A stretch of DNA of 55,907 nt from Sunxiuqinia dokdonensis. GTDB taxonomy: Bacteria; Bacteroidota; Bacteroidia; Bacteroidales; Prolixibacteraceae. The position numbers and the translations under genes are program-made. Location of the stretch: contig NZ_LGIA01000173.1 in the NCBI RefSeq assembly GCF_001270965.1, positions 1 through 55,907 on the forward strand. Reading direction: 5' to 3'. Below the pieces are notes generated by a model, which worked only from the letters and a program-made list of their open reading frames with translations, was not told the DNA's origin and searched no databases. Positions 11,598 to 55,525 of this stretch are shown in pieces. Each line of letters starts with the position of its first letter. The first letter of the stretch is position 1.

Positions 11598-11996
11598 ATG
11601 GTAAGCTTTCCCCGTCGTTTAGCAGCTTTTTCCCATGTTATAGCAAGCAGTTTCCGCTGTATAGCAGGCTATTCCCATCATTTAGTAAGCTATTACTGTC
11701 GTTTAGCAAGTGATTCCCGTGTTTTAGTAAGCAATCCGCGTATTTTAGCAATCGGTCCGCACATTTCAGCAAGCAATCCGCGCATTTTAGTAAGCTATTC
11801 GCGTATTTTAGCAAGCTATCCGCGCATTTTAGCAAGCAATCCGCGCAATTTAGTAAGCTATCTGCGTATTTTAGCAGGCTATCCGCGTAGCTTAGTAAGC
11901 TATCCGCGTATTTTAGTAAGCAATCCGCGTATTTTAGCAAGCAATCCGCACAATTTTGTAATCGATCCGCGCATTTTAGCAAGCAATCCACGCTTG
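11598..11996. repeat. Array of nineteen 21-bp tandem repeats
   Basis: Nineteen imperfect units of exactly 21 bp with consensus near TTAG(C/T)AAGC(A/T)ATCCGCG(T/C)ATT. The last dozen units are closest to each other and the first six are most diverged. Because 21 is a multiple of three, long frames stay open on both strands and read as heptapeptide repeats: RILASNP-like on plus and leucine-rich SLLKYAD-like on minus. Neither frame has a convincing start, signal or flanking domain, so I call this a repeat array, not a gene. Confidence 0.85.
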
Positions 11997-12968: not shown

Positions 12969-12999
12969 ATAGCCGCTTCCCCCCAGAAGCGGCTTTTCT
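12969..12999. terminator. Bidirectional terminator
   Basis: AGCCGCTTC pairs perfectly with GAAGCGGCT around a 6-base loop, with TTTTC on the plus side and A-rich sequence on the other. It lies between two convergent genes and the minus-strand gene ends at its edge. Confidence 0.78.
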
Positions 13000-13951
13000 A
13001 TTGCTTCAAAAGTGGATGAGAGTCGCCGGTGAGGCCCTGTGGCTGGCTGTTTCGGATTTCGTGGACCATGGAAATCGAGGGGCGGGCATCATCAAGGCCA
13101 AAGCCGTGTCCGCTTAAAATGTGCTGGTAGCTTTGCGTGTGCAGGTCGGTAAATCCGTTGCTGAACTCTATTTCTTCTCCATCAACGGTAACCGAACGAT
13201 AGGTTTGGAACCCGTTTCCTCTGGCTGGCTGCGGAATGTCGTCAAAGTTGAGGCTTAAAAACCAACGCACGCGGGCCTTTTTCAGTTGTAAAAAACCTGC
13301 TGCCCGGTCTGCTTGGTGAAGGTGAACCGTGCTTTGCTGAGCGCCACCAAAAATCCATTGCAGCATATCGAAAAAGTGAATGCCGATGTTGGTGGCGATT
13401 CCGCCCGATTTTGCGATATCGCCTTTCCAGCTCTCCTGGTACCATTTTCCGCGCGAAGTCACGTAAGTTAAATCAACCTCGTACATTTTCCCCGATTCCT
13501 TCTCAATCTTTTCTTTCAGGGCAACAATGGCCGGATGCAATCTTAATTGAAGGATGTTGTAGATCTGTTGACCGGTATCTTGTTCCAGCTGCTCCAGAGC
13601 ATCGACATTCCAGGGATTCAGCACCAGCGGTTTTTCGCAAATGGCGTCGGAGCCGTTCCGCAGTGCCATCCGGATGTGGGCGTCGTGCAGGTAGTTGGGC
13701 GAGCAAATGGAAATGAAATCCAGCGGATTGCCTTGGCGCTGCCGTTTGTACAGGTAGCGGTCGAAGCGTTCGGGCTCCAGAAAAAAGCTGGCCTCGGGGA
13801 AATACCGGTCCAGAATACCCACGCTGTCGAACTTATCCAGGGCGGCACATAGATTTCCGCCTGTTTCTTTAATCGCATGGATGTGGCGGGGAGCAATGTA
13901 GCCGGCTACTCCAATCAGTCCAAATGTTTTTCCGGTTTGGTTTGCGTTCAT
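12998..13951 (-). CDS. wbpB: WbpB/WlbA-like UDP-GlcNAc-uronate 3-dehydrogenase
   Basis: A 317-residue Gfo/Idh/MocA oxidoreductase with an N-terminal Rossmann fold (FGLIGVAGYIAPRHIHAI) and the CEKPLVLNP motif. The residues after the glycine motif (APRHIHAI) are typical of the WlbA/WbpB subgroup, which oxidises C3 of UDP-N-acetylglucosaminuronic acid. The gene just upstream is a WbpD-type acetyltransferase and a WbpE-type aminotransferase lies further upstream, which together give UDP-2,3-diacetamido-2,3-dideoxy-glucuronate. The 6-dehydrogenase that makes the substrate is not in the window. Unlike the exported oxidoreductase at 6780-8132, it has no signal peptide. Confidence 0.88.
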   Translation of the reverse strand: MNANQTGKTFGLIGVAGYIAPRHIHAIKETGGNLCAALDKFDSVGILDRYFPEASFFLEPERFDRYLYKRQRQGNPLDFISICSPNYLHDAHIRMALRNGSDAICEKPLVLNPWNVDALEQLEQDTGQQIYNILQLRLHPAIVALKEKIEKESGKMYEVDLTYVTSRGKWYQESWKGDIAKSGGIATNIGIHFFDMLQWIFGGAQQSTVHLHQADRAAGFLQLKKARVRWFLSLNFDDIPQPARGNGFQTYRSVTVDGEEIEFSNGFTDLHTQSYQHILSGHGFGLDDARPSISMVHEIRNSQPQGLTGDSHPLLKQ

Positions 13952-13962
13952 TTTGATGTTTT

Positions 13963-14529
13963 TTAGAAGGATTGGATCAATCGTCCGTCTTTTATCTCGT
14001 ATTTTTCACCGGTTTCGGGGCAAGTCAGCGTTTCATCCAATGTTGCTCCCACACGGCTCACCCAGCCGGTTTGAATGGCCGGAACGCCAACCATCAGAGC
14101 AAAAGGCATTACATTTTTGGTGACGACCGCTCCCGCACCGATTAGGGCATACTGACCAATCTTTACACCACATACGATGGTTGCGTTGGCACCAATCGAA
14201 ACGCCACGTTCAACGCGGGTTTCCTGAAATTGGGTTTTTCGTTCAATAAATGCACGCGGATTGACCACATTGGTAAATACGCAGCTTGGTCCACAAAATA
14301 CATCGTCTTCCAGAATCACCGAATCGTAAACACTGACGTTGTTTTGAATTTTCACACGATTGCCAATGCGGGCCTTTCCCCCCACAAAAACGTTTTGTCC
14401 TAAAACGCAGTCTTGCCCGATTTGAGCTCCGGACATCAGGTGACTGAAATGCCATATTTTGGTGCCGGAGCCAATGTTGGCACCCGCGTCAATGATGGCT
14501 GTTTCATGTGCAAAGTAGGATTTGTCCAT
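13963..14529 (-). CDS. wbpD: WbpD/WlbB-like N-acetyltransferase (left-handed beta-helix)
   Basis: A 188-residue hexapeptide-repeat acyltransferase ([49 protein letters not shown]) with a C-terminal tail ([18 protein letters not shown]) as found in WbpD/WlbB. It would acetylate the 3-amino group made by the aminotransferase, giving the diacetamido uronic acid nucleotide used in O-antigen or other surface glycans. It is 11 bp upstream of the WbpB-like gene. Upstream, the operon is broken by a palindromic repeat and the GxxExxY gene. Confidence 0.9.
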
Positions 14530-14546
14530 TTTTATCGTTTTTTTTC

Positions 14547-14600
14547 ACCGCGGAGTCGCAAAGGCGCAAAGATTAATACTTTCTCTGCGTCTCTGCGGTT
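14547..14600. repeat. Palindromic element, copy 1
   Basis: Imperfect inverted repeat: the left arm starts ACCGCGGAGTCGC and the right arm ends CTCTGCGGT, preceded by a T-tract. It is the first of five related copies in the same orientation and lies directly 3' of the GxxExxY gene. Confidence 0.8.
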
Positions 14601-14607
14601 GTTTCAT

Positions 14608-14994
14608 TTAAAAATTATTGACATATCGCTTAAATCCATCTTTAAGTAACGGAACATTAAAGTTAATTAACAAACCTAGTTTCTTGCCGGTCAGTTTTAA
14701 GTAAGAAATAATTTGTGCCTCGTGGACAGGCAAAATGTAATCAACGGCCTTCAGTTCAATAATGATTTCATTTTCCACCAATAGATCGATTCTGAAATCT
14801 TTGTTCAGGTTTTCGCTTTTATAAAATAACGGAACTGGCACCTGATTGCTTGCTTTAATGCCTCTGATTTGCAGCTCTTTCAAGAGGCAAAGTTCATAAA
14901 CAGACTCCAGCAAACCCGGGCCCATTTCACGATGGACTGTGATCGCGGCATCAAGGATTAGCTTCGAAAAATTATTTAGCTCAGTGTTTGTCAT
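14608..14994 (-). CDS. GxxExxY protein (PD-(D/E)XK nuclease-like)
   Basis: A 128-residue protein with the naming motif G27-x2-E30-x2-Y33 (GPGLLESVYE) and a nuclease-like core: D70 in FRIDLLV and E80-x-K82 in IIIELKA. This D...ExK spacing fits the PD-(D/E)XK superfamily, to which the GxxExxY family is assigned. The cellular role of the family is not established. The gene sits between WbpD- and WbpE-like genes of one pathway and is bracketed by copies 1 and 2 of a palindromic element, with three more copies upstream, so it looks like an inserted cassette. It could act on these repeats, but no sequence evidence proves that. Confidence 0.88.
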   Translation of the reverse strand: MTNTELNNFSKLILDAAITVHREMGPGLLESVYELCLLKELQIRGIKASNQVPVPLFYKSENLNKDFRIDLLVENEIIIELKAVDYILPVHEAQIISYLKLTGKKLGLLINFNVPLLKDGFKRYVNNF

Positions 14995-15011
14995 TCTTTT
15001 TTTTTTTTTTC

Positions 15012-15072
15012 ACCGCGGAGTCGCGACGGTGCAAAGAATAATTATTCTCTGCGTCTCTGCGTCTTTGCGGTT
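15012..15072. repeat. Palindromic element, copy 2
   Basis: About 61 bp with 25-bp imperfect arms (ACCGCGGAGTCGC ... GTCTTTGCGGT) around a short AT-rich centre. A run of 13 T precedes it. It lies just upstream of the GxxExxY start codon. Confidence 0.82.
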
Positions 15073-15082
15073 TCTAATTTTT

Positions 15083-15143
15083 ACCGCGGAGTCGCAAGGG
15101 CGCTAAGTTTAATAATTCTCTGCGTCTCTGTGTCTTTGCGGTT
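15083..15143. repeat. Palindromic element, copy 3
   Basis: Same orientation and length as copy 2, ten bases away. Arms ACCGCGGAGTCGC and GTCTTTGCGGT. Confidence 0.82.
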
Positions 15144-15167
15144 GATATTATTTTCAGTTTATATTTT

Positions 15168-15228
15168 ACCGCAGAGTCGCGAAGGCGCAAAGTTCAATTT
15201 TTCTCTGCGTCTCTGTGTCTTTGCGGTT
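15168..15228. repeat. Palindromic element, copy 4
   Basis: Same orientation; left arm variant ACCGCAGAGTCGC, right arm GTCTTTGCGGT. Lies 24 bp from copy 3. Confidence 0.82.
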
Positions 15229-15238
15229 AATTTCATTT

Positions 15239-16417
15239 TCACTTTCTATTTTCACCGCGGAGTCGCAAGGGCGCTAAGTTTAATACTTTCTCTGCGTCTT
15301 CGCGCCTCTGCGGTTGATCTTCCAGCAATTCAATGAGTTCATGGCATACGAGTTTAATTTCTTCTTCGGTAATAAACCCGTGAATGGGCAGCGAAAGCAC
15401 GGTTTCGGAAAGCAATTCGGCCACTTCAAACCGTTCGTCGCTTAAAACATCATCGCGAAATGCCTCTTGCTTTGGCAGAATTATGGGATAGTGCACGGTC
15501 GTTGGAATTCCCTTTTCGGCCAACTTTTCGCGAACCAGATCACGGTTTTCAATCATGACGGTGAATTGTGCCCAGGAGCTTTCGCGGCCATCAGCCACCT
15601 CGGGTAAAAGCACCTGTCCCTTCAGCAGGTTTGAATAAAGCGTTGCCGCTTGTTGCCGGTTTTTGATTTCCTTTTCAAAGTATTTCAGCTTCACCCGTAA
15701 AATTGCGGCTTGCAGCGTGTCCATCCGCCCGTTAATGCCGATGAGCTTGTGTTGGTATCGTTGCTCCTGTCCATGCGAGCGAAGCATTTTTAGCTTGGCA
15801 GCCCACTCGTCGTTGTTGGCAAAAATAGCACCACCATCGCCGTAGCAGCCCAGCGGTTTGGCTGGAAAAAAGCTGGTGGTGGCTATATCAGTCATCGAGC
15901 AGGAGCGCTGCCCGTGATACGTGGCGCCAAACGATTGTGCGCCATCTTCAATGACCCAAAGCCCATGACTTTTGGCAATCTGGTTGATGGCTTCAAAATC
16001 GGCACATTGCCCGAAAAGCGAAACGGCAATAATACCCTTGGTGCGCGGCGTTATTTTGGCCTCAATTTTCGTGATGTCGATGTTGAAATCGATCGGCGAA
16101 ACATCCACAAAAACCGGGCGCGCTTTGCAAAAACTGACCATTGATGCCGAAGCGATAAAGCTAAATGCCGGGCAAATCACCTCATCGCCTGGCTGCAAGT
16201 CAAGCGTCATGAGCGAGAGTAAAAGGGCATCGGTTCCGGAGCTGCACGCCAGCGCATGTTTTACGCCCGCGAAAGCAGCCAGTTCTTCCTCTAAAAGTTC
16301 AATCTCTTTGCCATGAATAAACGAAGCCGATTCGATCACCGACTGGATGGCTGCATCAATTTCGGGGCGGTAGGCTTGGTATTGCTTGTTAAGGTCGTTA
16401 AATTTCATTTTCAGCAT
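15239..16417 (-). CDS. wbpE: WbpE-like PLP aminotransferase (DegT/DnrJ/EryC1/StrS) with repeat-derived C-terminus
   Basis: A 392-residue sugar aminotransferase. The PLP-binding region is clear (VIEDGAQSFGATYHG) and the Schiff-base lysine is in TTSFFPAKPLGCYGDGG. In this context it would add the 3-amino group to the 3-keto sugar made by the WbpB-like enzyme, normally with glutamate. The natural end of the family is near CHELIELLE; the last roughly 25 residues (PQRREDAEKVLNLAPLRLRG and beyond) are encoded by palindromic element copy 5, so the insertion has replaced the original end. An ATG nine bases inside is an alternative start. Confidence 0.88.
   Translation of the reverse strand: MLKMKFNDLNKQYQAYRPEIDAAIQSVIESASFIHGKEIELLEEELAAFAGVKHALACSSGTDALLLSLMTLDLQPGDEVICPAFSFIASASMVSFCKARPVFVDVSPIDFNIDITKIEAKITPRTKGIIAVSLFGQCADFEAINQIAKSHGLWVIEDGAQSFGATYHGQRSCSMTDIATTSFFPAKPLGCYGDGGAIFANNDEWAAKLKMLRSHGQEQRYQHKLIGINGRMDTLQAAILRVKLKYFEKEIKNRQQAATLYSNLLKGQVLLPEVADGRESSWAQFTVMIENRDLVREKLAEKGIPTTVHYPIILPKQEAFRDDVLSDERFEVAELLSETVLSLPIHGFITEEEIKLVCHELIELLEDQPQRREDAEKVLNLAPLRLRGENRK
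15254..15315. repeat. Palindromic element, copy 5, inside the aminotransferase gene
   Basis: Arms ACCGCGGAGTCGC and GCCTCTGCGGT in the same orientation as the other copies. It overlaps the 3' end of the wbpE-like gene, supplies most of its last codons, and the stop codon lies 15 bp beyond. Confidence 0.82.
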
Positions 16418-55131: not shown

Positions 55132-55354
55132 TGTTAAGTCTCTTTTTGTGAATCCATTTAGCCTTCCGGAGATCTTTACTGATTTGTTCAAGCCAGAAAT
55201 AAGCAGACCACATGATATGGCGTGTAGGGTGCGAAAATTAGTCTGTAGAACATGAAAAGTGGCTTGTAGACGTTAATTGTCGATCGATAAAACCCACATT
55301 TCTACTTTTTTTGCATAAAATGGCTCTTTAGAACAAAAATTATAGGTAAATGCC
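55132..55354. other. Intergenic stretch
   Basis: About 220 bp between the zinc operon and the second repeat array. I see no gene, RNA or clear terminator. Confidence 0.45.
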
Positions 55355-55357
55355 ATT

Positions 55358-55525
55358 ACCAGAGCGGTAAATGAGGCTACCAGAGCGGTAGATGAGCTTA
55401 CCAGAGAGGAAAACGTGGTAACCGAAGCGGTAAACGTGATAGCCAGAGCGGTAAATGTGTTAACCAGAGGGGTAGATGCCATAACCGAGGCCGAAAACAC
55501 CACAACCAACGAAGTAGACGACTCG
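55358..55525. repeat. Second 21-bp tandem repeat array, eight units
   Basis: Eight imperfect 21-bp units with consensus near ACCAGAGCGGTAAATGAGNT. The plus frame reads as heptads such as TRAVNEA, TRAVDEL, TEAVNVI and ARAVNVL, with hydrophobic residues at positions 4 and 7, a coiled-coil pattern. That frame is bounded by TAG at 55343-55345 and TAA at 55541-55543 and has no ATG. The sequence differs from the array at 11598-11996 but has the same period. Confidence 0.8.

Follow-up and report, generated by a model that had tools for sequence, protein, structure and literature searches.

The window analyzed here is a stretch of 55,907 bp from Sunxiuqinia dokdonensis (GCF_001270965.1, contig NZ_LGIA01000173.1, positions 1 to 55,907 of the forward strand), in which a GxxExxY gene and its hairpin-forming repeats stand as a cassette between genes of the UDP-diacetamido-uronate pathway. 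All four genes of the locus (12998–16417) lie on the minus strand and follow one another as WbpE-like, GxxExxY, WbpD-like and WbpB-like. The first encodes an aminotransferase (15239–16417, 392 amino acids) whose best match in the PDB is WbpE (3nyu, E 7e-108). The WbpD-like acetyltransferase (13963–14529, 188 amino acids) matches entry 3mqg, 'Lipopolysaccharides biosynthesis acetyltransferase' (4e-73), which we take to be WbpD, and the WbpB-like oxidoreductase (12998–13951, 317 amino acids) matches WbpB (3o9z, 2e-106). Judged by their closest solved relatives, the three proteins are predicted to be enzymes of this pathway, and their genes are referred to below as E, D and B. An initial annotation of this DNA had named the same genes and coordinates and had described D as separated from E by the GxxExxY cassette over 709 bp; both points proved correct on re-examination (15239 − 14529 − 1 = 709).

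Read in the sense direction of these genes, the E–D gap consists of four hairpins, the GxxExxY open reading frame (ORF; 14608–14994, minus strand, 128 amino acids) and a fifth hairpin. The folding energies range from −14.2 to −24.7 kcal/mol, with z-scores of −2.2 to −4.9 against 200 shuffled sequences, in agreement with the strong hairpins that had been reported for the repeats. On the minus strand, hairpin 1 (15251–15318; −24.1 kcal/mol, z −3.26) overlaps E at its 3′ end, and is followed by hairpin 2 (15164–15232; −21.8 kcal/mol, z −4.53), by hairpin 3 (15079–15148; −14.2 kcal/mol, z −2.24), the weakest, which was matched by 5 of the 200 shuffles, and by hairpin 4 (15010–15078; −24.5 kcal/mol, z −4.93) immediately upstream of the GxxExxY ORF. 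Hairpin 5 (14543–14607; −24.7 kcal/mol, z −4.73) lies downstream of the ORF. In the sense direction the hairpins start near AACCGC and finish near GCGGT, their arms are built up from short repeats, each about 8 bases long, and a 20-nt motif has nine overlapping occurrences in the cassette repeats. A search of the own genome with a 155-bp repeat query returned four matches, all inside 14542–15318, and no other site. A known RNA family in this region is ruled out, as no Rfam family matched between 12500 and 17000 at E 0.1.

Because hairpin 1 overlaps the E gene, about 25 C-terminal residues of the WbpE-like protein are encoded by hairpin sequence; the best alignment to a solved WbpE does not extend past residue 364 of the 392. 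The C-terminus of E likewise lies in hairpin sequence in the closest relative (G003) and in G110; the cassette protein of G110 has its nearest counterpart in locus L026. Such tails were counted only where the ORF call confirms them, which is the case for the window, G003 and G110.

Searching the own genome (G000) for lone arms with a pattern (≤2 mismatches) gave 58 places against 42 for the reversed control, a weak difference, and in the eight regions from this search that were read, half-arms precede some genes. At one site of this genome (L152, C222, 18775–19308) about four ORF-less units of about 130 bp start with the motif of the window hairpins CCGCAGAGGCGCAAAG. At another (L158, C28, near 8535) a short half-arm stands between a trpB-like and a trpA-like gene, both named by eye, as if it were the trace of a lost cassette.

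The cassette ORF scores far above the cut-offs of the NCBIfam family GxxExxY (TIGR04256; 147.7 bits, cut-off 35) and the Pfam family PDDEXK_3 (PF13366; 142.4 bits, cut-off 22). These are the only families matched, and no transposase was found. Comparison of the protein profile with PDB sequences gave no match at E 1. The predicted structure has a mean predicted local distance difference test (pLDDT) score of 93.5, two of the five models being good, and the closest structures found by Foldseek are Cas4 SSO0001 (E 6e-4, template modeling score 0.53) and lambda exonuclease (E 6e-3). Nine residues (H21, G25, G27, E30, Y33, D70, E80, K82, and Q94) are identical in all ten members that were aligned, and among them E30, D70, E80, K82, and Q94 form the PD-(D/E)XK core. 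Given the modeled fold near Cas4 and lambda exonuclease and the invariant residues, the window protein is probably an active nuclease. A known defense system is ruled out, PADLOC giving no match for the cassette. None of 50,697 phage records matches the protein, and PHROG gave only a weak match (E 0.19), for which reason we rejected phage cargo as an explanation; matches were present in 8 of 72,556 plasmid records. In the open-licence papers searched, the passages available merely name the gene and describe no function for it, and six arm strings were absent from these papers.

The initial annotation had proposed that the cassette could weaken co-transcription of the pathway and that the hairpins could end or stabilize transcripts. 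Between 12900 and 16600, the sense strand holds six terminator-like matches, none of them in the hairpins, one being a 5-pair stem inside the GxxExxY ORF; the antisense strand holds four, three of which are within hairpins. The total of ten compares with 5.7 ± 2.6 in shuffled sequences, a weak excess. The sequence that comes after the stems on the sense strand is rich in A rather than in T. We therefore rejected the hairpins as sense Rho-independent terminators, and since they hold no terminator-like site on the sense strand, the pathway genes wbpE, wbpD and wbpB are probably still co-transcribed. That the hairpins terminate or attenuate transcription and leave wbpD and wbpB poorly expressed, as the strength of the stems might suggest, is on these grounds very improbable. 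A clear stem stands after WbpB (12971–12994); it is terminator-like on both strands with 9 and 10 pairs and likely marks the end of the transcription unit. No sigma-70-like sense promoter was found inside the cassette, and a Bacteroidetes-type promoter pattern matched three times in the whole window, about as often as expected by chance, and never in the cassette. Cutting of the stems by RNase III is a more specific prediction than termination: in the passages available of a study on Coxiella, RNase III is described as cutting such stems in the intervening sequence (IVS) of 23S ribosomal RNA (rRNA) (PMC4990558).

We examined the E|D junction in relatives through 30 loci, obtained by a search with D that found a match in 60 of 61 genomes; both E and D could be placed in 27 of these loci, the window included. 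E adjoins D in 18 of these (≤105 bp, without an ORF between them), which fits the earlier description of the pathway genes as usually adjacent. An intact GxxExxY gene separates them in six loci, a copy with a stop in one (L028) and an internally deleted copy in one (L020), and in another the junction is occupied by an unrelated PD-(D/E)XK nuclease of the YhcG/DUF1016 type (L024, 2054–3046, in G030). In G003, whose D and E proteins are 88–89% identical to those of the window, a single hairpin replaces the cassette, and this locus is counted among the 18. As relatives carry the cassette whole or damaged, keep no more than a hairpin in its place, or lack it altogether, the word 'mobile' is reasonable over evolutionary time. 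The idea of a mobile cassette splitting the pathway is supported, and a role of it in ending transcripts is not. In a tree of 122 GxxExxY proteins the E|D members are split between two positions, with L026 and L028 in a well-supported clade apart from the others. The E|D proteins form one group in none of 200 bootstrap trees, in an alignment of only 127 columns in which the starred branches alone do not force two groups.

For the comparison beyond this junction, the named loci are the best 80 of at least 565 relatives from a scan of species genomes, to which further loci from the window's family were added. A GxxExxY gene is present in 85 of the 100 genomes of this family, with 0 to 17 copies per genome and eight copies in the own genome. 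Repeats were sought in the 150 bp on each side of the gene and were accepted when they beat all 60 shuffles. Among 114 loci with full 150-bp and distinct flanks, 90 have such repeats (77 inverted, 37 direct, some both), compared with 1 of 38 neighboring genes and 13 of 207 other ORFs. These controls on other genes replaced a control that paired the arms of different loci, which was dropped because all loci share a theme. At simple loci, such as L059, the ORF lies in the loop between two arms; in the window and at similar loci it lies between whole hairpins. The arms are alike within a locus and different between loci. The insert of the window belongs to a widespread family of operon cassettes in which a GxxExxY ORF stands in or between its own hairpin repeats, and the larger pattern is real. 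The family extends to an archaeon: over 120 residues, a Methanophagales copy with one stop has 70–73% identity to copies from a planctomycete and from two Chloroflexota (L071, L085, L079, L114), and this identity points to transfer across domains.

The similarity of arms rises with the identity of the proteins (Spearman 0.288 over 127 loci and 7864 pairs with non-homologous neighbors, with host relatedness left in the comparison), and none of 500 permutations gave a value as high. The same holds for the 73 named diverse loci (0.174) and the 54 others (0.454), each again with 0 of 500 permutations. Repeats that track the protein at unrelated sites argue against a rather different explanation, according to which the cassette has no movement of its own, is carried along with operons that are transferred and recombine, persists at junctions because it does no harm there, and grows its repeats by slippage and recombination. 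Also at odds with it is the presence of related proteins elsewhere in the pathway, between other pairs of its genes. In G101, a relative of the window protein lies between a UDP-sugar dehydrogenase gene and a WbpB-like gene (L176), and its best match (80%) is L044, where GxxExxY lies between WbpD-like and WbpB-like genes. We regard such passive carriage as unlikely, though far from negligible.

Orientation was read in two sets. Ten multi-copy genomes contributed 70 copies, which are not all the copies of these genomes, matches below 250 bp being omitted; where both neighbors were called, both are in sense with the cassette for 60 of 66 copies and both antisense for one. The broad set comprises the 108 of 122 loci at which both neighbors were called, on mechanically predicted ORFs of which some are false, and here both neighbors are in sense at 77 loci and antisense at 10. 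For ordinary ORF triples taken from this material the corresponding numbers are 169 and 37 of 315. Measured against these triples, the ten genomes show a strong sense bias and the broad set a moderate one. Several junctions recur, namely those between the small and large subunit genes of methylmalonyl-CoA mutase (mutA|mutB), trpE|trpG, ffh|folD, cas4|cas1 and the gene after sbcD, and the named junctions consist mostly of ordinary metabolism genes. The own genome has a cassette between cas4 and cas1 (L009, C171, 11368–11712), and in the available part of one paper a GxxExxY domain is named next to a CRISPR reverse transcriptase (PMC8934634). Genes of the TIGR02436 four-helix-bundle family behave similarly: at 30 loci (L212–L241) both neighbors are in sense in 27, and 16 have flanking repeats of a style of their own. 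The mutA|mutB junction is common to four four-helix-bundle loci and 10 GxxExxY cassettes, in a comparison that leaves out one of the 30 four-helix loci.

Gain and loss were also followed at ffh|folD. Of the 37 genomes of one genus, 36 have folD, and 30 loci were inspected. A GxxExxY gene of nearly full length is present in five (L182, L185, L189, L202, L207) and a broken copy in one (L190). Remnants consist of the last ORF codons with the right arm (L210) or of the right arm only (L183, L184, L188); in the other 20 loci no ORF was recognized, and a few of these may keep remnants of arms. Decay is common elsewhere, since 36 of 83 match rows from six multi-copy genomes are partial or contain stops, some of these rows being gene pieces or lying at contig ends. 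Intact copies are nevertheless under purifying selection, the ratio of nonsynonymous to synonymous divergence (dN/dS) lying between 0 and 0.14 in those pairs for which dS could be measured.

Purifying selection could also be expected if the cassette benefited its host, GxxExxY being a repair or defense nuclease and the hairpins a regulatory RNA that sets the levels of the operon genes. The occurrence of the gene in most genomes of the family agrees with such a role, as do its positions between cas4 and cas1 and after sbcD, there before an sbcC-like gene identified by eye. The missing PADLOC match, the ordinary metabolic nature of most named junctions, the frequent decay and the swing in copy number within one family speak against it, and we consider a benefit of this kind quite improbable.

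Synonymous divergence of the cassette was compared with that of both flanking genes in 18 pairs, of which only part have all three genes measurable and two are identical records. At ffh|folD the cassette dS is 0.19 against 0.60 and 0.70 for the flanks in one pair and 0.27 against 0.67 and 0.67 in a second, with separate intervals in both; in a third it is 0.25 against 0.38 and 0.46, with overlapping intervals. The first of these pairs speaks against a cassette that merely travels with its neighbors. For one pair at the mutase junction the values are 0.12 for the cassette and 0.25 and 0.24 for the flanks, the intervals touching, and one pair at E|D gave 0.55 against 1.43 for E alone. For L169/L178 the cassette dS nominally exceeds that of one flank. 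Divergence of ffh and folD in windows shows the same step, and a dip at the start of folD is also seen in pairs without a cassette.

Copies within one genome were compared for the ten genomes, and only 3 of 250 pairs reach 75% identity, two in G002 and one in G121. In G002, a tandem array of paralogous ABC permease genes contains two cassettes that are 94% identical, a third, truncated cassette and a four-helix-bundle gene (L277, C247, 2500–19200). The 94% pair, which has like arms, was rejected as evidence for transposition, as its neighbors are tandem paralogous permeases, and the array speaks for passive carriage. The G121 copies are related (proteins 86%, DNA 82% identical over about 470 bp) and lie at successive junctions in the order gene-cassette-gene-cassette-gene (L276, C109, 1481–1949 and 2710–3180). 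In the second cassette an arm also supplies the end of the frame of the middle gene, and the better-preserved copy has the ends TGTCTGAACC and GGTTCAGACA, an inverted pair when read by eye. This order fits a local hop, since a tandem duplication would require a later deletion, and it counts against a cassette without movement of its own. As related copies stand at successive junctions in one genome and no pair of 75% identity or more was found at distant unrelated sites, active mobility of the cassette is something that we infer.

Taken together, we consider an IVS-like, homing-like selfish operon cassette to be the best reading, with a probability of roughly 0.6. Several observations weigh against it. 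No repeat signal was obtained at 24 of the 114 loci, and the sense bias of the broad set is only moderately above that of ordinary ORF triples. None of the 250 within-genome pairs from the ten genomes reaches 75% identity at distant unrelated sites. The exact insertion point and a target duplication at ffh|folD were sought and were not readable, because the intergenic sequence is too diverged. The cassette dS lies clearly below both flanks only at ffh|folD, in two of three pairs, and several other junctions, where it is not lower, fit vertical descent. The equal divergence of cassette and flanks at these junctions, the lack of close distant copies, and the phage and plasmid counts given above would also be expected of passive carriage with the operon.

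If the cassette is selfish and homing-like, it would spread into operon junctions, its nuclease acting on DNA, either on its own arms or on the target. Its expression would be driven by the promoter of the host operon, which we propose as the reason for the sense bias. The stems would be cut in the mRNA, RNase III being the probable enzyme; wbpE and wbpD-wbpB would still be transcribed jointly but might end up on separate final mRNAs. The cost to the host would be small, and the cassette would therefore persist for a time and then decay to hairpin scars. Overall, it looks like a little described kind of cassette that spreads slowly, is dispensable, and stands between operon genes in numerous bacterial genomes and in at least one from an archaeon.

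A broader, tentative proposal is that the GxxExxY and the S23/four-helix-bundle families, which are unrelated, share one undescribed lifestyle as 'operon intervening elements', hairpin-armed ORFs that would invade shared junctions across bacteria and archaea and be excised from mRNA, with the GxxExxY nuclease recognizing its own arms and driving homing. We hold this to be doubtful, and would not expect it to be correct in full. No S23 proteins in an intergenic or mobile context were found in the open-licence papers searched. If GxxExxY genes do drive hairpin cassettes, a class of intergenic repeats would be explained, the puzzle of the IVS would gain a much wider frame, and arms plus protein would offer a simple test of how elements spread and how operons tolerate them. 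These genes are very common, yet their function is undescribed in what was available of the papers searched.

Two 21/63-bp tandem arrays lie elsewhere in the window, one at 11668–11989, where both strands have open frames, and the other close to the end of the window at 55344–55488.

Compared with known systems, the cassette resembles insertion sequences and miniature inverted-repeat transposable elements in having terminal repeats of its own and ORF-less derivatives. It differs from them in that there is no transposase, that no target duplication was seen, and that no close distant copies were found in the ten-genome sample. Rickettsia palindromic elements, likened here by description, also consist of palindromic repeats that enter reading frames, as in the tail of the WbpE-like protein in the window, G003 and G110. 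To our knowledge they carry no nuclease ORF, and in this the cassette differs from them. The free-standing homing genes of phage T4 (Seg/Mob) are nuclease ORFs that lie between conserved genes and are missing from the alleles of some relatives, and the cassette is alike in both respects, its site being occupied in some relatives and empty in others at both wbpE|wbpD and ffh|folD. It differs from Seg/Mob in being chromosomal, in its own repeats and in a predicted PD-(D/E)XK fold near Cas4 and lambda exonuclease. The IVS of bacterial 23S rRNA (S23p), as described in the available passages, contains a small ORF in a stem loop with tandem units upstream of it, occurs sporadically and shows ORF decay (PMC4990558). 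On this description the cassette is similar in its stem-loop ORF, the short tandem units upstream, the sporadic spread and the decay of the ORF. It differs in its location in a protein-coding operon instead of an rRNA gene, and its ORF, which is under purifying selection, has a GxxExxY nuclease fold with a conserved active site, not the S23p four-helix bundle. The protein family of the rRNA IVS, TIGR02436, is itself also present as sense cassettes between protein genes.

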